Assembly: GCF_000245735.1 (NCBI RefSeq)
Contig: NZ_AHTH01000012.1
Location: 1-64,000 of the forward strand
Source of the DNA: Alishewanella jeotgali KCTC 22429
GTDB lineage: Bacteria; Pseudomonadota; Gammaproteobacteria; Enterobacterales; Alteromonadaceae
DNA length: 64,000 nt
Direction of reading: 5' to 3'
Below are positions 4,332 to 42,738 of this stretch, piece after piece (the stretch's first letter is position 1; each line of letters opens with the position of its first letter). Under the pieces are notes generated by a model, which worked only from the letters and a program-made list of their open reading frames with translations, was not told the DNA's origin and ran no database searches. A program made the translations under genes and the position numbers.

Positions 4332-5741
4332 ATGTCTGTAGAAAACGTACTGAAATTAATCAAAGAGAACGAGGTTAAATTTGTTGACCTGCGTTTTACC
4401 GATACTAAAGGTAAAGAGCAGCATGTAACGGTACCGGTCAGCCAGATCTCAGAGAGCACCTTTGAAGACGGCAAGATGTTTGATGGTTCTTCTATCATGG
4501 GCTGGAAAGGTATCAATGACTCAGACATGATCCTGTTACCGGACCCAACCACTGCCGTGCTGGACCCGTTTTTTGAAGAAACCACGCTGAATATCACCTG
4601 CGACGTCATTGAACCAAGCACTATGCAAGGTTATGACCGCGATCCACGTTCTATCGCCAAACGTGCCGAAGACTATCTGAAGTCAACCGGTATTGCCGAT
4701 ACCGTGCTGTTTGGCCCGGAACCAGAATTCTTTATGTTCGACGATATTCGTTTCGAAACCAATATGTCGGGCTCATTCTTTAAAATTAACTCTACGGAAG
4801 CCGCCTGGAACTCAGGTACCGCTTACGAAGAGGGTAACAAAGGCCACCGTCCGGGCGTTAAAGGCGGTTACTTCCCGTTACCACCGGTAGACTCAGGCCA
4901 TGACATCCGTAGCGCCATGTGTATGGTGCTGGAAGAAATGGGTCAGGTAGTCGAAGCTCACCACCATGAAGTCGCCACTGCCGGTCAGAACGAAATCGCG
5001 ACCCGTTTCAATACCTTAACCAAAAAAGCCGATGAAATTCAGCAGTTAAAGTATGTGATCCATAACGTGGCACACCTGTATGGCAAAACTGTTACCTTTA
5101 TGCCAAAACCACTGGTTGGCGATAACGGTTCAGGTATGCACTGTCACCAGTCACTGGCTAAAGACGGCGTCAACCTGTTTGCTGGTGATAAATATGCCGG
5201 TTTATCTGAGCTGGCGCTGTACTACATTGGCGGTATTATCAAACACGCTAAAGCGCTGAACGCCTTTACTAACCCGTCAACCAACTCGTACAAGCGTCTG
5301 GTTCCGCACTTTGAAGCCCCGGTGATGCTGGCTTACTCTGCCCGTAACCGTTCTGCGTCAATCCGGATCCCGCTGGTACCAAGCGCCAAAGCCCGTCGTA
5401 TTGAGTGTCGTTTCCCGGATCCGGCCGCTAACCCATATCTGGCCTTTGCTGCCCAGTTAATGGCCGGTATTGACGGTATTCAGAATAAGATCCACCCAGG
5501 CGATGCGATGGATAAAGATCTGTACGATCTGCCAGCAGAAGAAGCAGCTAACATTCCACAGGTTGCTACCTCGCTGGATGAGGCCCTGAACGAGCTGGAT
5601 AAAAACCGCGCCATCTTCACCAAGGGCGGCGTAATGTCAGACGATATGATTGATGCTTACATCGCTATCAAGCGCGCCGAAGCCCGCAAAGTATCGATGG
5701 CAGTACATCCACTGGAATTCGAACTGTACTACAGCGTTTAA
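4332..5741 (+). CDS. glnA: Glutamine synthetase, type I
   Basis: Catalyses ATP-dependent condensation of ammonia with glutamate as a dodecamer. The product is 469 residues, the same length as the E. coli enzyme. Visible landmarks are the beta-grasp start, [20 protein letters not shown], the metal/ATP motif [16 protein letters not shown] and the NRSASIRIP substrate motif. The adenylylation-site region (KDLYDLP) is also present, so control by GlnE is expected. The ATG at 4332 follows GGAGG and starts the standard [11 protein letters not shown]-terminus; an in-frame extension to 4260 would run through the promoter. Expression is probably driven by NtrC and sigma-54. Confidence 0.98.
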
Positions 5742-5775
5742 ATCTTGATCTGACTAGTAATAAATGGTTAGAACA

Positions 5776-5803
5776 CAAAGCTCACTTCGGTGAGCTTTTT
5801 TTT
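5776..5803 (+). terminator. glnA terminator
   Basis: An AAGCTCAC / GTGAGCTT stem with a UUCG tetraloop is followed by eight T, 35 bases after the glnA stop. Confidence 0.93.
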
Positions 5804-5876
5804 GTAGAAAATTTAACATTTTCCGGCTAAAGTTATAAAACGACGTCAGGAAGACATAGCATGGGAATAAGGGTAG

Positions 5877-6392
5877 ATGCGCCATTTTTTAATAGTAGTT
5901 ATCTTATATTCATTATCATTCCCGGCATTAGCCCAGGAAAAGCGTATCTATGTCAGCCGTGACGCTAATGGCGTAGTAATCTTTTCAGATAGCCCATCCC
6001 CCGGTGCAGAGGAAATAACGCTTACGGTGCGTCCTAATCTGATGGAAGCAACCGAAGTACGACCAATAGAGAAAAAAGCTCCCGCGCCTGAAGCATTTAA
6101 AGTTGAAATAACTCAGCCTCTGGACCAAGCGACCGTACGAGATAATACGGGCTCAGTTTATATCGAGGGTCGCATTCAACCTCGTTTCCAGCGAGGCTTT
6201 CGCGTCCGTTTAGTCTTTGACGGCTTAGCTTATGGCGAACCTCAAAATACTACGGTTTTCGTGCTTCGGGATATCGACCGCGGCGCTCATACTATCCAAC
6301 TCGAACTTATCGACCAAAACGGCAAGCTAATTGCAATAAGTCCTGTCACAACCTTTTATTTGCATCGGGCCAGCGTAATTTCACCAAATTAG
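5877..6392 (+). CDS. DUF4124 domain-containing periplasmic protein
   Basis: A 171-residue secreted protein. Residues 1-19 form a signal peptide ending in ALAQ. Residues of about 20-50 (RIYVSRDANGVVIFSDSP) fit the DUF4124 domain, a short beta domain found in many gammaproteobacterial envelope proteins. The rest resembles a beta-sandwich with no catalytic motif that I can see. Homologues often sit between glnA and ntrB, as here, but no role in nitrogen control is established. Base composition is slightly more AT-rich than in its neighbours. Confidence 0.8.
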   Translation: MRHFLIVVILYSLSFPALAQEKRIYVSRDANGVVIFSDSPSPGAEEITLTVRPNLMEATEVRPIEKKAPAPEAFKVEITQPLDQATVRDNTGSVYIEGRIQPRFQRGFRVRLVFDGLAYGEPQNTTVFVLRDIDRGAHTIQLELIDQNGKLIAISPVTTFYLHRASVISPN

Positions 6393-6442
6393 TGCAAAGC
6401 CAGTGTAATCCGACTTCAGTCGGGCTAAACTGCCGCTCACAA

Positions 6443-6457
6443 GCACCGATTTGGTGC
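6443..6457 (+). promoter_or_regulatory. NtrC-binding site in front of ntrB
   Basis: GCACCGATTTGGTGC fits GCAC-N5-TGGTGC exactly. It ends 11 bases before the ntrB ATG and adjoins its ribosome site (AAAGGAGGGG). In E. coli an NtrC site at the glnL promoter represses ntrBC; the position here suggests the same autorepression. Confidence 0.85.
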
Positions 6458-6468
6458 AAAGGAGGGGT

Positions 6469-7530
6469 ATGACAGCACACGCAAGCAGCCAGGGCTTGAC
6501 CGAGCAGCTCACCACTGCAGTACTGGTGTTGGATAGCCAGTTACAGATTTGTTATTTCAATACCGCCAGCTGTGCGGTATTAGGGCTGGGCGAAAAACGT
6601 CTGGCGCAACATTATTTTCCGGCCTTATTCCAGCATCTGGATTTAAAAGCAAGCCACTTACACAATGCTTTATTGCACCGCCAATCCTTTAGTGTTGGCG
6701 ATGTGCAGGCGGTGACTATCGACGGCCGCCTGTTACTGCTGGATATTGCGGTAACCCTGCTGGAGCAGGAACAGCCGCAGTTGTTGCTGGAACTGAGACA
6801 AGTCGAGCAGCAGCGCAAGATTAGTATGGAAAATCTGCAACAACATCAGCATCTGGCTGCCCGCGAGCTGGTGCGCAATCTGGCACATGAAATTAAAAAC
6901 CCGCTCGGCGGCCTGCGTGGCGCGGCACAATTGCTGGAAGAGTCGCTGAATGACGAACAAAAAGAGTACACCCAGCTCATCATTGCTCAGGCCGATCGCT
7001 TGCGCAATCTGGTGGACCGCTTACTGGGCCCGTACCGGCCACCGCAGCGTATCCTGAGCAATTTACATCAGATGGCCGAGCAGGTACTGCAACTGGCGCA
7101 AATTGATAATCCGGCGCCGATCCGTTTTCACCGCGACTATGATCCCAGTATTCCGGATTTTTACTTTGACCCTGAGCTGTTACAGCAGGCGCTGCTGAAT
7201 ATCGTGCGTAATGCCCAGCAAGCATTGCAGGACGGCGGCGATATTACGTTGCAAAGCCGTATTCTGTCGCAGCACACCCTGCACGGCAAAAGATACAAAC
7301 TGGTCGCCTGTATTAAAGTGATTGATAACGGGCCGGGGATCCCGGCGGAGATCCGCGATACCCTATTCTATCCGATGGTCAGTGGCAAAGCCGGCGGCAC
7401 CGGCCTTGGTCTGTCCATCGCGCAAACCCTGATCCATCAACAACGTGGCTGGATCGACTGCGAAAGCTGGCCCGGTCACACCGCCTTTATGCTTTATCTG
7501 CCAATTTCAGACTATGAGGAAGCACCATGA
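6469..7530 (+). CDS. glnL: Nitrogen regulation sensor kinase NtrB
   Basis: A cytosolic histidine kinase/phosphatase of 353 residues that controls NtrC phosphorylation in response to PII. It has an N-terminal PAS domain (about residues 10-120) and no membrane segment. The phosphoacceptor motif is the NtrB-specific HEIKNPLGGLRGAAQLL near residue 145, and the ATPase N-, G1- and G2-boxes follow (NIVRNAQQAL, DNGPGIP, GGTGLGLS). The ATG at 6469 is chosen for its strong AGGAGG ribosome site. The ntrC start overlaps its stop by four bases. Confidence 0.96.
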   Translation: MTAHASSQGLTEQLTTAVLVLDSQLQICYFNTASCAVLGLGEKRLAQHYFPALFQHLDLKASHLHNALLHRQSFSVGDVQAVTIDGRLLLLDIAVTLLEQEQPQLLLELRQVEQQRKISMENLQQHQHLAARELVRNLAHEIKNPLGGLRGAAQLLEESLNDEQKEYTQLIIAQADRLRNLVDRLLGPYRPPQRILSNLHQMAEQVLQLAQIDNPAPIRFHRDYDPSIPDFYFDPELLQQALLNIVRNAQQALQDGGDITLQSRILSQHTLHGKRYKLVACIKVIDNGPGIPAEIRDTLFYPMVSGKAGGTGLGLSIAQTLIHQQRGWIDCESWPGHTAFMLYLPISDYEEAP

Positions 7531-8939
7531 AACAGGATGTCTGGATCATTGACGATGATAATTCTATTCGCTGGGTACTGGAAAAGGCGCTGAGCCGCAG
7601 TGCCATTGACTGCGAAAGTTTTGCCTCAGCCGATCTGATGTTACAGCGGCTGGAATATGAACAGCCGGCGGTCGTGGTATCCGATATCCGGATGCCGGGT
7701 ACCGATGGTATGGAGCTGTTGAGCCGTTTACAGCAACTAAGTCCGGAATTGCCGGTGATCATTATGACGGCGCATTCGGATCTGGACAGTGCGGTCAACG
7801 CCTTTAAACGGGGCGCCTTCGAGTATCTGCCGAAACCCTTTGACGTGAACGATGCCGTCAGCCTGATCAGCCGCGCGCTGGAGCATAGCAAAAACCGGCG
7901 CGCCAAACAGCAGCCGGCAGCACCGCTGCTCAGTACCGAAATTATTGGTGAAGCGCCGGCGATGCAGGAAGTGTTTCGAGCCATCGGCCGCCTGGCCCGC
8001 TCCAGTATCAGTGTGCTGATTAATGGCCAGTCCGGTACCGGTAAAGAGCTGGTGGCGCGGGCACTGCATAAACACAGTCCACGCCATGAACAGCCTTTTA
8101 TTGCGCTGAATATGGCCGCAATCCCGAAGGATCTGATCGAGTCTGAACTCTTTGGCCATGAAAAGGGTGCCTTTACCGGTGCTCAGAATGCCCGTAAAGG
8201 CCGCTTTGAGCAGGCCGATGGTGGCACCCTGTTTCTGGATGAAATCGGCGATATGCCGCTGGACGTACAAACCCGGCTGCTGCGGGTGCTGGCCGATGGC
8301 CAGTTTTACCGGGTCGGTGGCCATCAACCGGTAAACGTCGATGTGCGGATCATTGCCGCGACACACCAGGATTTAGAGCAACTGGCGGCGCAGGGCAAGT
8401 TCCGGGAAGACTTATTCCACCGCTTAAATGTGATCCGTATTCATCTGCCGTCCCTGAAAGATCGCCGCGAAGATATCGGTAAACTCGCGCGGCACTTTTT
8501 ACAGCAAGCAGCAACCGAACTGAATGTGGAAGCCAAAACGCTAAGTAAGGAAGCCGAGCAGGTGCTGACCCGGCTTGACTGGCCGGGCAATGTGCGGCAA
8601 CTGGAAAATACCTGTCGCTGGTTAACCGTGATGGCCAGTGGCAAGCATATCGTGGTGGCGGACTTGCCGCCAGAATTACTGCAGCAACCGAAAGCTCAGC
8701 CGAAACTGAGTAGCGCTGAGGGCCATACCGATTGGCAAAGTTTATTGGCGGCCTGGGTCAGCGAGCGCCTGGCAGCCGGTCAGGATAATATCCTTGACGA
8801 AGCCGCACCAGCCTTTGAGAAAATTGTGCTGGAACAGGCGCTGCGTTATACACACGGCCATAAACAGGAAGCGGCCCGCAAACTGGGTTGGGGCCGCAAT
8901 ACGTTAACCCGCAAGCTGAAAGAGCTGGGGGTAGAATAG
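7527..8939 (+). CDS. glnG: Nitrogen regulation response regulator NtrC
   Basis: A sigma-54 enhancer-binding activator of 470 residues (E. coli 469). The receiver domain carries the acceptor Asp53 in SDIRMPG and a Lys in LPKPFD. The AAA+ domain has GQSGTGKE (Walker A), the sigma-54 contact loop [15 protein letters not shown] (Walker B) and an arginine-finger region. The Fis-type helix-turn-helix at the end reads [19 protein letters not shown]. Its targets in this window are the dyads before glnA and ntrB. It is translationally coupled to ntrB through an ATGA overlap. Confidence 0.97.
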
Positions 8940-8959: not shown

Positions 8960-9448
8960 TTAGCCCGCGTTCGCCGGCTGCCGGGCTTTGCGTTCTTTTC
9001 GCTCGCCCGAATGCTGACGCCATGGTTTGCCCTCGCCGCTTTGGCGTTGACTACGCAGCTCTGCCAATTGCTGCCGTTGTTCCGGCGTTAACAGCTGATG
9101 GATTTGATGCTGTAACTTTAAGCGCGCTAACTGGTGCTGCTCACGTTGCTCTGCACGCTGTGCCAGCAGTTGTTGCGCCGCCAGCTCGTCAAACTGTGGC
9201 GCGTCCAGCAGCTGTTGCATGGCTTCTGGATTACGCTGTTGTTGCCGGGCTTCGCGATGTTGCTGCATCAAACTCTGGATTTGTGCCCGCTGTTCAGCAC
9301 TCAGATCCAATTGCTTTAATGGCAGCATAGTTCGCTCATGCCGCTGTCCCTCACCCTGCCAGCCTTTGCCAGGATGCGCCAGCGCCAGTGGGCTGCTTAA
9401 CAGTAATACAGTACTTAAGGTCAAAATTAAGGTATTCGTTTTCATCAT
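8960..9448 (-). CDS. cpxP: CpxP/Spy-family periplasmic protein
   Basis: A periplasmic, mostly helical protein of 162 residues with a signal peptide ending in ALAHP. It contains the two LTxxQ-like repeats of the CpxP/Spy family, seen as DLSAEQRAQIQ and LLTPEQRQQLAEL, with a Q/R-rich chain between. CpxP binds the sensor CpxA and restrains it, and also acts as a chaperone. The divergent position next to cpxRA and the shared CpxR box support the name. Two in-frame ATGs (9448 and 9445) fit the GGAG motif about equally well; a GTG further upstream overlaps that motif. Confidence 0.82.
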   Translation of the reverse strand: MMKTNTLILTLSTVLLLSSPLALAHPGKGWQGEGQRHERTMLPLKQLDLSAEQRAQIQSLMQQHREARQQQRNPEAMQQLLDAPQFDELAAQQLLAQRAEQREQHQLARLKLQHQIHQLLTPEQRQQLAELRSQRQSGEGKPWRQHSGERKERKARQPANAG

Positions 9449-39292: not shown

Positions 39293-40090
39293 ATGACGCA
39301 GGGCAGTCTGATTTGCCTGGGTACCGGCATTATGCTGGGTGCCCATCTGGACCCGCTTAGCCGCAACTATATCGCTGCTGCCGATGTGGTCTTTGTGCTA
39401 ATGGCCGATGCGTTAACCGAGCAATGGTTACTGGAGATGCACCCGGACGCCCGCTCACTGCAGCCTTATTATCATCAGGGGCCTTCACGCCAGCATAGCT
39501 ATCAGCTAATGGTTGAGGCGATGCTGGCTGAAGTCGCGGCCGGTAAGAAGGTGGTTGGCGCCTTTTATGGTCATCCGGGGGTCTTTGCCTGGGTACCGCA
39601 TCAGGCAGTGAAGCAGGCACAGCAACAAGGCTATTTTAGCCGGATGCTACCGGCGATCTCAGCCGAAGACTGTCTGTATGCCGATCTGGGGATTGATCCG
39701 GGCCGCTATGGTTGCCAGCTGTACGAATGCAGCCAGTTTATGTTTTATCAGCGCACTATCGATACCGCCGCCTACCTTATTTTATGGCAACTGGGTGTTG
39801 CCGGCGACCGCAGTCTGGCACGCTTTGCCACCCCCGGCCAATACCGGCAGCTGTTAAGCGACTATTTATGCCGTTTTTATCCGCCGGCACATCAGGTTAC
39901 CCTGTATGAAGCGGCCAGCCTGCCGACCCAGCAAGCCCGCATTGAGCATTTGCCTCTATCAGAGCTGGCACAGGCCACTGTCAGCGGTAAAACCACACTG
40001 GTGATCCCGCCCTGCAGCGCGCTACAGGCCAATACGGAACTGCTGCAACAATTGGCCGCACTGGATCAGACAACAGATGTTAGCCGTTAA
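39293..40090 (+). CDS. SonM-like split-borosin alpha-N-methyltransferase
   Basis: 265 residues with the tetrapyrrole-methylase fold. Unlike CobA/CbiF proteins it follows the SonM/OphMA borosin pattern throughout: GSLICLGTGIMLGAH (residues 4-18), LSRNYIAAADVVF, R66-x3-Y70 in SRQHSYQLMV, Y92-GHPGVF, ISAEDCLYADLGIDPG and YECSQFMFY. SonM methylates backbone amides of a separate precursor, SonA, using SAM. The R/Y/Y residues correspond, from memory, to the catalytic set of SonM. It is eight bases after dusC and overlapped by the GNAT gene. A candidate precursor lies at 40714. The family is clear; the substrate is inferred. Confidence 0.85.
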   Translation: MTQGSLICLGTGIMLGAHLDPLSRNYIAAADVVFVLMADALTEQWLLEMHPDARSLQPYYHQGPSRQHSYQLMVEAMLAEVAAGKKVVGAFYGHPGVFAWVPHQAVKQAQQQGYFSRMLPAISAEDCLYADLGIDPGRYGCQLYECSQFMFYQRTIDTAAYLILWQLGVAGDRSLARFATPGQYRQLLSDYLCRFYPPAHQVTLYEAASLPTQQARIEHLPLSELAQATVSGKTTLVIPPCSALQANTELLQQLAALDQTTDVSR

Positions 40091-40637
40091 CGGCACCAGC
40101 CAACCCGGCCTGACGTTACAGGCTCTTGACCCTGCGGCCGAGCCACTATTTCTGGCGTTATTTTGCGAACCCCAGGTAATGCGGCATATCGGTCCGGCAC
40201 TAAGCATAACGCAGGCGCGGGCGCGTTTTAATACGCTGCTACAGCACCTGCAGCAGCCTGCCTCTTTGCCTGTGACCACAGCGACAACCACCAGCTGGCC
40301 GGCAGCGTATTTTCAGGTACAACTGGCCGGAGTGGGCGCTATCGGGCTGGCGATGTTATTACCGGGCGCCAATGTCAGCGAGGCTGAGCTTGGCCGTATG
40401 TTGTTACCTGCCTGGCAACAGCAGGGGCTCGGCACCCAACTTAGCCGATTGTTGATTGCGCAGGCCGGGAGTCTGGGCGGAATTGAAACCCTGAGCAAAA
40501 GGATCCAGCAGCAAAATCTCGCCGCCCTGCATTCGGCAGCCAAGCTGGGGTTTAAGGTCAGTGCCGAACTAGCGGATGGTTTTTTACGGCTAAGCCGGCC
40601 ACTTAAGCTGAACCCGGCGGAAGAATCCCGAAAATAA
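40077..40637 (+). CDS. GNAT family N-acetyltransferase
   Basis: A 186-residue protein with a GNAT fold. The acetyl-CoA segment LLPAWQQQGLGTQLSRLLI (about residues 117-135) and the later LAALHSAAKLGFKV are visible. It begins inside the methyltransferase gene (14-base overlap), so the two are probably translated together. It could tailor the same product or act elsewhere; the substrate cannot be told. Confidence 0.78.
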   Translation: MLAVNGTSQPGLTLQALDPAAEPLFLALFCEPQVMRHIGPALSITQARARFNTLLQHLQQPASLPVTTATTTSWPAAYFQVQLAGVGAIGLAMLLPGANVSEAELGRMLLPAWQQQGLGTQLSRLLIAQAGSLGGIETLSKRIQQQNLAALHSAAKLGFKVSAELADGFLRLSRPLKLNPAEESRK

Positions 40638-40651
40638 AACCAAAGGCCCCT

Positions 40652-40680
40652 TGCTGCTGTCATAAAAACTGCCTACATTA
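40652..40680 (+). promoter_or_regulatory. Sigma-70-type promoter before the candidate borosin precursor
   Basis: TTGCTG and TACATT are separated by exactly 17 bases. They lie 33 bases before the ATG of the 86-residue protein, suggesting separate transcription of the precursor candidate and the diguanylate cyclase. Confidence 0.5.
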
Positions 40681-40713
40681 GGCATATCGACTTTTAATTA
40701 CCGAGCCCTGCTA

Positions 40714-40974
40714 ATGCCTTCTTTATCCGAGCAACTACTAAGCCTGGCACTTACGCCGGTCTGGCAACCCAGCGTCGAATCCGATAATGCTGCGCTACTG
40801 GCTACGCTTAATACGGCAGAGCAGGCATTATTGCGGGAAAAGATTATCTGTTTTGTACTCACACCAGAGCCAGAAGAGCCCGAAAAACCAGAGCAACCTG
40901 AACCTGATAAACCAGAACCTGATGAAGAGAAGTTGACGATTGCTGCTGTATCGGTGATGCGGCGCGCAGGGTAA
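40714..40974 (+). CDS. Candidate split-borosin precursor peptide
   Basis: 86 residues in three parts. Residues 1-48 (LSEQLLSLALTP, then DNAALLATLNTAEQALLREK) look like the helical recognition domain of borosin precursors such as SonA, which share an N-x2-A ... E-Q pattern (from memory). Residues of about 50-71 are an acidic Pro linker of PE/PD units. The last 14 residues, KLTIAAVSVMRRAG, are a short beta-prone hydrophobic tail suited to be the methylated core. A second hydrophobic stretch is IICFVLT. It lacks a signal peptide. The methyltransferase is 0.6 kb upstream on the same strand. The ribosome site is weak. The gene could instead code an unrelated small protein. Confidence 0.55.
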   Translation: MPSLSEQLLSLALTPVWQPSVESDNAALLATLNTAEQALLREKIICFVLTPEPEEPEKPEQPEPDKPEPDEEKLTIAAVSVMRRAG

Positions 40975-40986
40975 ACAGGGTCGATA

Positions 40987-42738
40987 ATGACGCTCGCTAA
41001 GGCGATACTCTCAGCTCTGTTTAGTTTGGTGGTTCTATCAGTACAGGCTAACGTAAACAGTATTTCAGAACAGCTCAGAGAGCTTGATGAGCTGCGCCTG
41101 AAAAATCGTACTGAGTTTACTGACAGGCTTGCCTCTTTGAAAGCGAGCACAAATGATCAGCAAATTAGCGAGCATGACAAACATAAACTTTCACTATTAT
41201 CAGCATGGGATCTGGTAATAAAAGGCGACTTCAATCAAGCGCTCCAACTTGCTGAAGGAATTGAACAGCGCGCAGATAGACAACTGGCCATTAGAGCTTC
41301 GAGTTTAATTGTAAATATTCATACCCTTAGTTTTAAGTATATCGACGCCTTTGCTGGCGTTGAGAAACTGCTCAGTTATGCTGTATCGATAAACGATGAG
41401 CATCTTTACTATCAGACTATCGGGCAAGTCATTCTGCTTTACAGCAAAATTGAGCGTTATGAGCAGATCCAACAATTAATTAGCCATGGTTTAAAGATTA
41501 CCCGCGATACGACTCTGCGCTGTCGTCTCCAGGCACTGGGATTACAAAGCCTGTATCACTCAGTGCCTTTTAATGAATATCAACAGACATTTAATGAGAT
41601 AAGTGAATTATGCGAGGCCACTACAGAGGCAATGTTTAATTTACTAATTATCCGCAACCATATGTTCTATTTACTGGAACAACAGCAAGCCGCTGCTGCC
41701 CTGGCGTTTTATCAGCAGTATTATTCTCAGGTTGAACAGATTAATTATCCGATTTTAACCGCCGGTTTTAACGCCGCCGCCGCAGAAGCGCTTTTACAAC
41801 AGGGCGAGTTGGCTGCAGCCAGTGAGCTGGCGCAGCGCGCTGAGCAAAGTTTACCGGGTGATCGGAATGACCCGGCGGTGCTGAGTACCTACCGGGTACT
41901 AACGCTGCTGGCGCAGGCGGAGCGTAACTTTGACAACCTGCTGCGTTATAGCGAAAAACGCCGTGATACCGAGCTGGCGATTGCCAGAGAAAAAGCCTCG
42001 CAGCAATTGGCTTACCAGCTGGCCAGTGGCGAAGCCCGTCTGAAAGAGCAACGGATCCAGCTATTGGATAAAGATAATGAACTGCTTACGCTGGAACGTA
42101 ATTTATATCAGCAGCAGGCGGAAAATCGCTATTTAATGCTATTACTGATTGGTAGCCTGAGTTTAATCCTTGGCTTACTGACCTACCGTGGCCTGACCCG
42201 CAGTAAGCGTTATCGCAAAATGGCCGAGTTTGACCAACTTACCGGCATTAGCAACCGTTATCATTTTACTGAGCAGGCGCAGCGGGAAATTGCCCATTGT
42301 ATCCGGGCGCAGCGGCCGGTAGCGCTGATCCTGTTTGATTTGGACCACTTTAAACAAATTAATGACCGCTTTGGTCATGCCGCCGGCGACTGGACCTTGC
42401 AACAAGTGGTGCTAAGTTGCCGCAACTTTATCCGGCATAGCGATATTTTTGGCCGTATTGGTGGCGAAGAGTTTGTGATCCTGCTGACAGACTGCACGGC
42501 CGAGCAGGCGGTGATGCTGGCTGATATTTGTCGTACCGCACTGGCAGATATTGATACCAGTGGTTATCAGCCAAAATTTAAGGTTACGGCCAGCTTTGGC
42601 ATTAGCGACAGTCAGCAGGCGGGTTATGATCTCAGTGCCTTGCTGGCAGCTGCCGATGCAGCTATGTATCAGGCCAAACAGCAGGGACGTAATCAGGTGT
42701 ACTGCCCCGCCACAGCGGACGGGGCCAGGGCGTGTTGA
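40987..42738 (+). CDS. TPR-like sensor diguanylate cyclase
   Basis: A 583-residue membrane-bound enzyme making cyclic di-GMP. A signal peptide (about residues 1-22) leads into a periplasmic helical-repeat (TPR-like) region to about residue 370. A membrane helix at about 378-398 follows, then the GGDEF domain. The active site is GGEEF and the inhibitory RxxD site (RHSD) lies five residues before it. The 12-base gap suggests co-transcription with the candidate borosin precursor. The first half of the gene is visibly more AT-rich than the second. Confidence 0.88.
   Translation: MTLAKAILSALFSLVVLSVQANVNSISEQLRELDELRLKNRTEFTDRLASLKASTNDQQISEHDKHKLSLLSAWDLVIKGDFNQALQLAEGIEQRADRQLAIRASSLIVNIHTLSFKYIDAFAGVEKLLSYAVSINDEHLYYQTIGQVILLYSKIERYEQIQQLISHGLKITRDTTLRCRLQALGLQSLYHSVPFNEYQQTFNEISELCEATTEAMFNLLIIRNHMFYLLEQQQAAAALAFYQQYYSQVEQINYPILTAGFNAAAAEALLQQGELAAASELAQRAEQSLPGDRNDPAVLSTYRVLTLLAQAERNFDNLLRYSEKRRDTELAIAREKASQQLAYQLASGEARLKEQRIQLLDKDNELLTLERNLYQQQAENRYLMLLLIGSLSLILGLLTYRGLTRSKRYRKMAEFDQLTGISNRYHFTEQAQREIAHCIRAQRPVALILFDLDHFKQINDRFGHAAGDWTLQQVVLSCRNFIRHSDIFGRIGGEEFVILLTDCTAEQAVMLADICRTALADIDTSGYQPKFKVTASFGISDSQQAGYDLSALLAAADAAMYQAKQQGRNQVYCPATADGARAC

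Follow-up and report, generated by a model that had tools for sequence, protein, structure and literature searches.

The window, i.e. the whole 64,000-nucleotide stretch of DNA that was analysed, contains a locus in which a dus gene precedes, in this order, genes for a methyltransferase, a GNAT acetyltransferase, an 86-residue protein and a GGDEF protein (Table 1). The methyltransferase, the GNAT overlapping it and the small protein had been located by a first-pass annotation made from the sequence, and all three genes were confirmed. A gap of 12 nt separates the gene of the small protein, the presumed precursor, from the GGDEF gene. From its N- to its C-terminus the GGDEF protein, a diguanylate cyclase, is composed of a signal-peptide-like start, a TPR sensor predicted to be periplasmic, a transmembrane segment and the GGDEF domain. 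The 24-nt stretch ahead of the precursor includes the dyad TGCCTA-CAT-TAGGCA (positions 40670-40684); it is changed but recognisable in loci L035, L037 and L038, and has no recognisable counterpart in the remaining genus loci. In genome G011 23 of its 24 nucleotides stand before the cyclase gene, the precursor itself being gone. Among the ORFs between 38.2 and 43.9 kb we found no dedicated processing or export gene and no protease.

Table 1. Features of the methyltransferase-precursor-cyclase locus (positions in the window)
Feature	Position	Strand	Remarks
SonM-like alpha-N-methyltransferase, TP_methylase PF00590	39293..40090	+	265 aa; Pfam E=1.2e-16
GNAT acetyltransferase	40077..40637	+	186 aa; Pfam Acetyltransf_3 E=1.6e-12; overlaps methyltransferase by 14 nt
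Conserved 24-nt stretch 5' of precursor; candidate promoter or operator	40663..40686	+	23/24 nt kept in G011
Precursor protein	40714..40974	+	86 aa; equivalent ORF in 26 loci; precursor-model match before 129/149 GGDEF ORFs
Leader, residues 1-42, shortened borosin-binding-domain-like, helical	40714..40839	+	alignment, AF2
Predicted core/methylation stretch IICFVLT, residues 44-50	40843..40863	+	SonA-like YVMVA/YLVIS alignment position
Hypervariable acidic Pro/Glu tail, residues 51-86, ending MRRAG	40864..40971	+	alignment, sibling DNA comparison
Hypervariable exchanged block: core end, tail, first ~217 cyclase codons	40858..41637	+	sibling DNA identity
Membrane diguanylate cyclase	40987..42738	+	583 aa; GGDEF E=1.6e-45

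The earlier view that the methyltransferase follows the SonM/OphMA pattern over its whole length was borne out by a phmmer search against the PDB, in which it matched SonM with E=2.2e-73 and OphMA with E=4e-45 over nearly the full length. The R66-x3-Y70 and Y92-GHPGVF motifs pointed out in the first-pass annotation are present, and R66, Y70 and Y92 are, together with Y60, invariant across 30 methyltransferase homologues (alignment A4). Between siblings 9-10 of the 265 methyltransferase codons differ silently and 2-3 by an amino acid; the enzyme is under purifying selection. It was present in 22 of the 24 same-genus relatives first searched and in 29 of the 31 genomes of the whole genus, and the search for the same gene pair in relatives, which had been proposed as a check, showed that the enzyme and the small protein are co-conserved. 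In locus L041 there is a second, partial methyltransferase of about 110 aa (9029-9358), and L070 carries a tandem pair of methyltransferase genes (5137-6778) followed by a 132-aa ORF, with no GGDEF gene near. The coupling of the GNAT to the methyltransferase, suggested earlier as a new detail of such pathways, holds inside the genus, where the GNAT gene lies directly 3' of the methyltransferase in all 28 loci with this arrangement; outside the genus it was seen in one case, L077. As a general borosin partner the GNAT was therefore rejected; it belongs to the locus as an accessory constant within this genus.

Searched alone, the 86-residue protein gave no match in Pfam, NCBIfam or the PDB. In each of 26 related loci, those looked at first, a small ORF of like build was found directly 5' of the GGDEF gene, in agreement with the earlier proposal that the SonM-type enzyme has a separate small precursor beside it. 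These ORFs have in common a leader of helical build, a stretch of hydrophobic residues (KIVCMI-PAEEP kind) and an acidic tail, frequently with a C-terminal ending such as IKxAG. Codons 1-47 of the window precursor are kept in two sibling genomes, with four amino-acid differences in each. Aligned to the fuller leaders, the window leader shows two gaps. AF2 placed helices at residues 4-13 and 19-40 in what is a poor model (mean pLDDT 70.9, pTM 0.26), and a fold search with this model found no PDB match at E values up to 10. No signal peptide was recognised on the window precursor. A profile built from 21 relatives, which left out the window clade and L066, matched only SonA chains in the PDB, and these weakly (E=0.011-0.017). 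The precursor of L066, a locus of another family, is a straightforward homologue of SonA (E=3.2e-14), and it likewise precedes a GGDEF gene.

The methylated residues of SonA are L63 and I65, as described in PMC8429565. When 27 precursors were aligned with MAFFT, IICFVLT fell at this position, at low identity to the SonA-like rows; EKIICF is invariant among the five nearest precursors. The first-pass annotation had taken the last 14 residues for the core and named IICFVLT only as an alternative; the alignment favours the latter. As aligned methylation site the C-terminal KLTIAAVSVMRRAG was rejected, because the position of the SonA core is occupied by IICFVLT and the precursor end is hypervariable. 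With the core at IICFVLT, the acidic PE/PD stretch, previously regarded as a linker between leader and core, becomes a tail behind the core. Despite the hypervariability of the C-terminus, an ending of the form hydrophobic-K/R-x-A-G/V recurs in many precursors of the genus. A pepsin-like protease (PF00026, the shewasin family), considered as maturation enzyme in view of the role of shewasin A, was rejected; the family is absent from genome G000 and occurs in 3 of the 31 genus genomes. Taken together, the split-borosin reading of the window locus is well supported at the gene level, and the Alishewanella cluster probably makes a backbone-methylated peptide.

The gene order with a diguanylate cyclase had been considered unusual. 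Our survey of 394 genomes of the order, 95 of them with the methyltransferase, shows the opposite: a diguanylate cyclase is the rule near such methyltransferases. Enzyme loci were fetched in two rounds, 117 at first and then 46 more, the latter mostly from Shewanella. A same-strand GGDEF gene within -300 to +2600 nt was found for 75 of the 84 methyltransferases that scored at least 320 bits in the order-wide sample and for 39 of the 40 in the Shewanella sample, where the contig of the sole miss (L161) ends at that place. The chance expectation is about 2.4%, with 51 GGDEF matches in G000. At least six (L058, L077, L087, L095, L124 and L127) of the nine high-scoring enzymes without adjacent GGDEF gene have a sensor-family match beside them; the other three are L068, L126 and L149. 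An ORF matching the precursor model stood directly 5' of 129 of the 149 GGDEF ORFs near such methyltransferases, the model having been refined on the same candidates (126 in the first round). The 20 without precursor include two misses of the script, L036 (in-frame stop) and L044 (start too far upstream), each of which did have a precursor-like ORF when the 26 loci were examined. The gene order in the 128 usable pairs is enzyme-precursor-cyclase in 107 cases and precursor-cyclase-enzyme in 21. The median gap between precursor and cyclase genes is 6 nt, and the two genes overlap or nearly overlap. The precursor of L190, which over 70 residues is identical in sequence to SonA, lies directly 5' of a TPR-GGDEF gene.

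The association is also seen in the content of whole genomes. The sensor family occurs in 84 of the 394 genomes; sensor and enzyme were found together in 80 genomes, the sensor alone in 4, the enzyme alone in 15 and neither in 295 (Fisher p=1.6e-62, the genomes not being independent). One could imagine that the two have separate functions, the borosin pathway making a natural product and the cyclase merely sharing its operon, and the enzyme family does work without GGDEF, for only 7 of the 37 methyltransferases below 320 bits have a GGDEF neighbour. The co-occurrence, an adjacency far above the background and the linked exchange described below make this scarcely credible.

Several loci depart from the standard arrangement. 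Tandem precursor+cyclase units following a single enzyme were observed in L040, L042, L043, L046 and L075, the second precursor being of the KVVCAICPPEEP kind and overlapping the cyclase gene; in the first four of these loci the second unit comes without a second enzyme. Beside the enzyme and precursor of L127 (6300-8480, a tandem pair) and L124 (5630-6805) there are TPR proteins without GGDEF domain, which points to the TPR part as the partner that does not change. In G011 the dus gene and an intact 577-aa TPR-GGDEF gene (L262, 907-2640 and 3036-3977) are found at the same place; dus, cyclase and tdh are there, and methyltransferase, GNAT and precursor are gone. Genome G419 has a second sensor-family cyclase (L263, 1471-3219) with no enzyme or precursor adjoining, an orphan receptor by its context.

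Partner-only genomes of this kind (G011, one sensor of G419), the polymorphic cassettes and the occurrence of TPR proteins without GGDEF would fit orphan immunity equally well, if the borosin were antagonistic and the polymorphic TPR protein guarded the producer or detected an attack. However, the partner mostly has an intact GGDEF output domain, which is conserved while the sensor changes, and there is no export gene beside the precursors. We regard a toxin/immunity pair as clearly improbable.

A comparison of the window with its siblings L035 and L036, made in 150-nt segments over 8.5 kb (36.6-45.1 kb), revealed a sharply bounded block of divergence. The flanking DNA is mostly 93-100% identical, apart from a few segments of 82-90% around 36.6 kb and 42.3-42.7 kb, whereas identity drops to 80-81% in the segment starting at 40801 and to 45-65% in the segments covering 40951-41700. 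Within the precursor the divergent block starts after IICFV; its other end is sharp and lies at about residue 217 of the cyclase, past which the sibling proteins are nearly identical again. The block takes in the precursor tail and, of the periplasmic TPR sensor, the N-terminal half. As a control we took 30 GGDEF loci each from G000 (51 matches) and G003 (49 matches). Among the 23 with a counterpart, the window pair was the only one with an N-terminal-only block and at least 92% identity on both sides; several of the 23 pairs diverge across the whole gene. The cyclase gene of A. agri BL06 (L036, about 6530-8266) has one in-frame stop in the sensor part, and is either a broken gene or the result of a sequencing error.

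Natural swaps were also found in Shewanella. L191 and L190 are 87-95% identical in the flanks and the GGDEF domain and 45-56% in core and sensor, whereas the L191/L181 pair is alike in core and sensor (95-98%) and less similar in the domain (65-87%). In the pair L199/L200 the divergent tract spans the whole precursor. Core/tail and sensor are thus exchanged as one cassette among close relatives, while the enzyme, the leader and the GGDEF domain stay. Related species trade the variable end of the peptide along with the sensor half of the neighbouring signalling enzyme, a pattern that suggests a peptide signal with a receptor of its own.

The linkage was quantified with close pairs, defined by at least 93% methyltransferase identity, in which sensors were called different at an identity of at most 0.70 and similar at 0.80 or above; loci recur among the pairs, which are not independent of one another. 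The sensor identities of such pairs show a largely bimodal distribution. In all 48 different-sensor pairs (16+24+8) core identity was 0.21-0.68, and in all 17 similar-sensor pairs (13+2+2) it was 0.69-1.0. An in-between pair, L173/L171, is a misfit (sensor 0.79, core 0.26). Partial Mantel tests of sensor against core, given methyltransferase, domain and leader, yielded r=0.69 (n=26), 0.48 (n=23) and 0.47 (n=26) in the three sets, with p=0.0002 each; the correlation of domain with core, given the sensor, was 0.03, -0.17 and -0.25. A set of 11 Shewanella loci falls into two sensor classes, and core class and sensor class coincided in 11 of 11, with three class changes on the tree of the enzyme, five on that of the domain and four on that of the leader. 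A sign test on these class switches had 2-3 independent pairs on starred branches (p 0.25-0.5), too few for significance. In the PAED and genus sets the change counts say little, because the sensor classes mostly have a single member.

Because the precursor end adjoins the sensor start, a single recombination tract will move the two regardless of what they do. A main rival reading is therefore that only the sensor is under diversifying selection, in response to an outside ligand, a phage or a predator, and takes the 3' end of the precursor with it. The short gap between the two genes, the L199/L200 tract and the co-variation of the leader with the sensor in two of the three sets (partial Mantel given core: r=0.12, p=0.15; r=0.24, p=0.018; r=0.55, p=0.0002) are in line with such hitchhiking. 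But the core is changed in all 16 different-sensor pairs of SonA-type Shewanella, and at 95% methyltransferase identity the identity of the leader is 0.91 and that of the core 0.29. Passive transport would leave the dedicated adjacency unexplained, and the duplicated units retain precursor and sensor together. We consider it unlikely that the precursor end is a mere passenger.

The most telling part of the locus, overlooked in the first-pass annotation, is the sensor of the cyclase. AF2 modelled cyclase residues 1-380 as an all-helical superhelix and stalk with a pLDDT of 93.8, and profile as well as fold searches identified the sensor as TPR. In the fold search LGN came first, and Rap-pheromone complexes and NprR were among the best 20 matches; as the TPRs of LGN rank above it, the likeness to Rap is not specific. 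Two cysteines, C179 and C209, are invariant in 67 sensor sequences and fit the predicted periplasmic location. This location bears on the idea that the methylated precursor is never released and serves, as a folded protein, as partner of the cyclase in its own cell, e.g. at membrane insertion. The lack of an exporter, signal peptide or protease in the locus and the overlapping or near-overlapping genes, suggestive of coupled translation, speak for such internal regulation, whereas the sensor is predicted to be periplasmic by its signal-peptide-like start, C-terminal transmembrane segment and invariant cysteines, and the precursor is made in the cytoplasm. Internal regulation appears highly improbable to us.

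The explanation that we favour, with a probability of roughly 0.6, is that the locus encodes a type IV-like split borosin pathway whose mature product is the dedicated ligand of the sensor of the cyclase encoded directly behind, and acts through c-di-GMP. By homology, the SonM-like enzyme would bind the helical leader and N-methylate backbone amides of IICFVLT, and in this genus the GNAT may add a further modification. The peptide, comprising core and acidic tail, would then be released and reach the periplasm, where it may bind, to judge from the co-variation, the N-terminal half of the TPR superhelix. According to the order of the domains, binding would alter c-di-GMP synthesis through the stalk, the membrane helix and the GGDEF domain. 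A ligand and its receptor would explain the adjacency, the joint exchange, the duplication of precursor and cyclase together and the G011 locus, in which an intact cyclase without enzyme, GNAT and precursor is as expected of receptor-only cells. It speaks against this explanation that no signal peptide, exporter or protease was seen in the locus, and that variation in the window clade is confined to the tail and the final residue of the core, IICFV being conserved, so that the tail would have to carry the specificity. A broader version, for which we would offer somewhat less than even odds, is that split borosins of bacteria of the Alteromonadales type are polymorphic peptide signals, each N-methylated core/tail having its own periplasmic TPR-cyclase receptor; core and sensor would pass between species as a cassette, and the system would tell like from unlike cells and set c-di-GMP to match.

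The closest characterised system is SonM/SonA of Shewanella oneidensis, a type IV split borosin that, as described in PMC8429565, likewise consists of a separate methyltransferase and a small adjoining precursor. The window enzyme is homologous to SonM over its full length, including the key residues, and its putative substrate also has a predicted helical leader and a candidate hydrophobic core. The window locus differs in its shorter leader, for which two helices are predicted (a borosin-binding domain has five), in the longer acidic tail behind the core and in the GNAT between enzyme and precursor. The arrangement before a TPR-GGDEF gene is common to the window precursor and the SonA-identical one of L190. 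The accessible part of PMC8429565 contains neither the term "GGDEF" nor "biological role". GGDEF is drawn in some borosin architecture in the legend of Fig. 1 of PMC11395268, thus the association of GGDEF with borosins as such may be known; in the accessible part of that paper no receptor role and no linked variation is proposed for the borosin types with GGDEF. Literature searches, which mostly did not reach subscription papers, gave no match for borosin together with diguanylate cyclase or for SO1480, and for backbone N-methylation together with GGDEF a figure legend only. The receptor reading and the linked exchange of core and sensor were not met in the literature searched, as far as its text was accessible. 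We propose the TPR sensor encoded by the adjoining gene as the partner of bacterial split borosins, in answer to the question of their role. The pattern points to a ligand, a receptor, the variable half of that receptor, natural swap pairs and, with the SonA locus, a well-studied organism. If the proposal is true, bacterial borosins gain a biological role and c-di-GMP a class of peptide-ligand receptors, and a drug-like peptide chemistry becomes tied to signalling by c-di-GMP and to the way in which strains recognise one another.

The agr and comQXP pheromone loci are known for the linked hypervariability of the peptide and the sensor domain next to a conserved output domain. In the window locus, too, peptide and sensor vary together while the flanks and the output domain stay, with L173/L171 as a misfit. 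The receptor is a diguanylate cyclase here and a histidine kinase there, the chemistry of the peptides differs, and the window locus is without a processing or export gene.

A second likeness is to the RRNPP receptors (Rap, NprR; PDB 8rsv, 4gyo, 5dbk), which bind their peptides in a TPR superhelix and of which RapF and RapJ were matched by profile. The TM score with the window sensor is about 0.5-0.6 at a sequence identity of about 10%, LGN scores higher, and the two have the TPR fold alone in common. RRNPP receptors, which occur in Gram-positive bacteria and phages, are cytoplasmic and have an HTH or phosphatase domain, whereas the window cyclase has a signal-peptide-like start, a transmembrane segment and a GGDEF domain instead.
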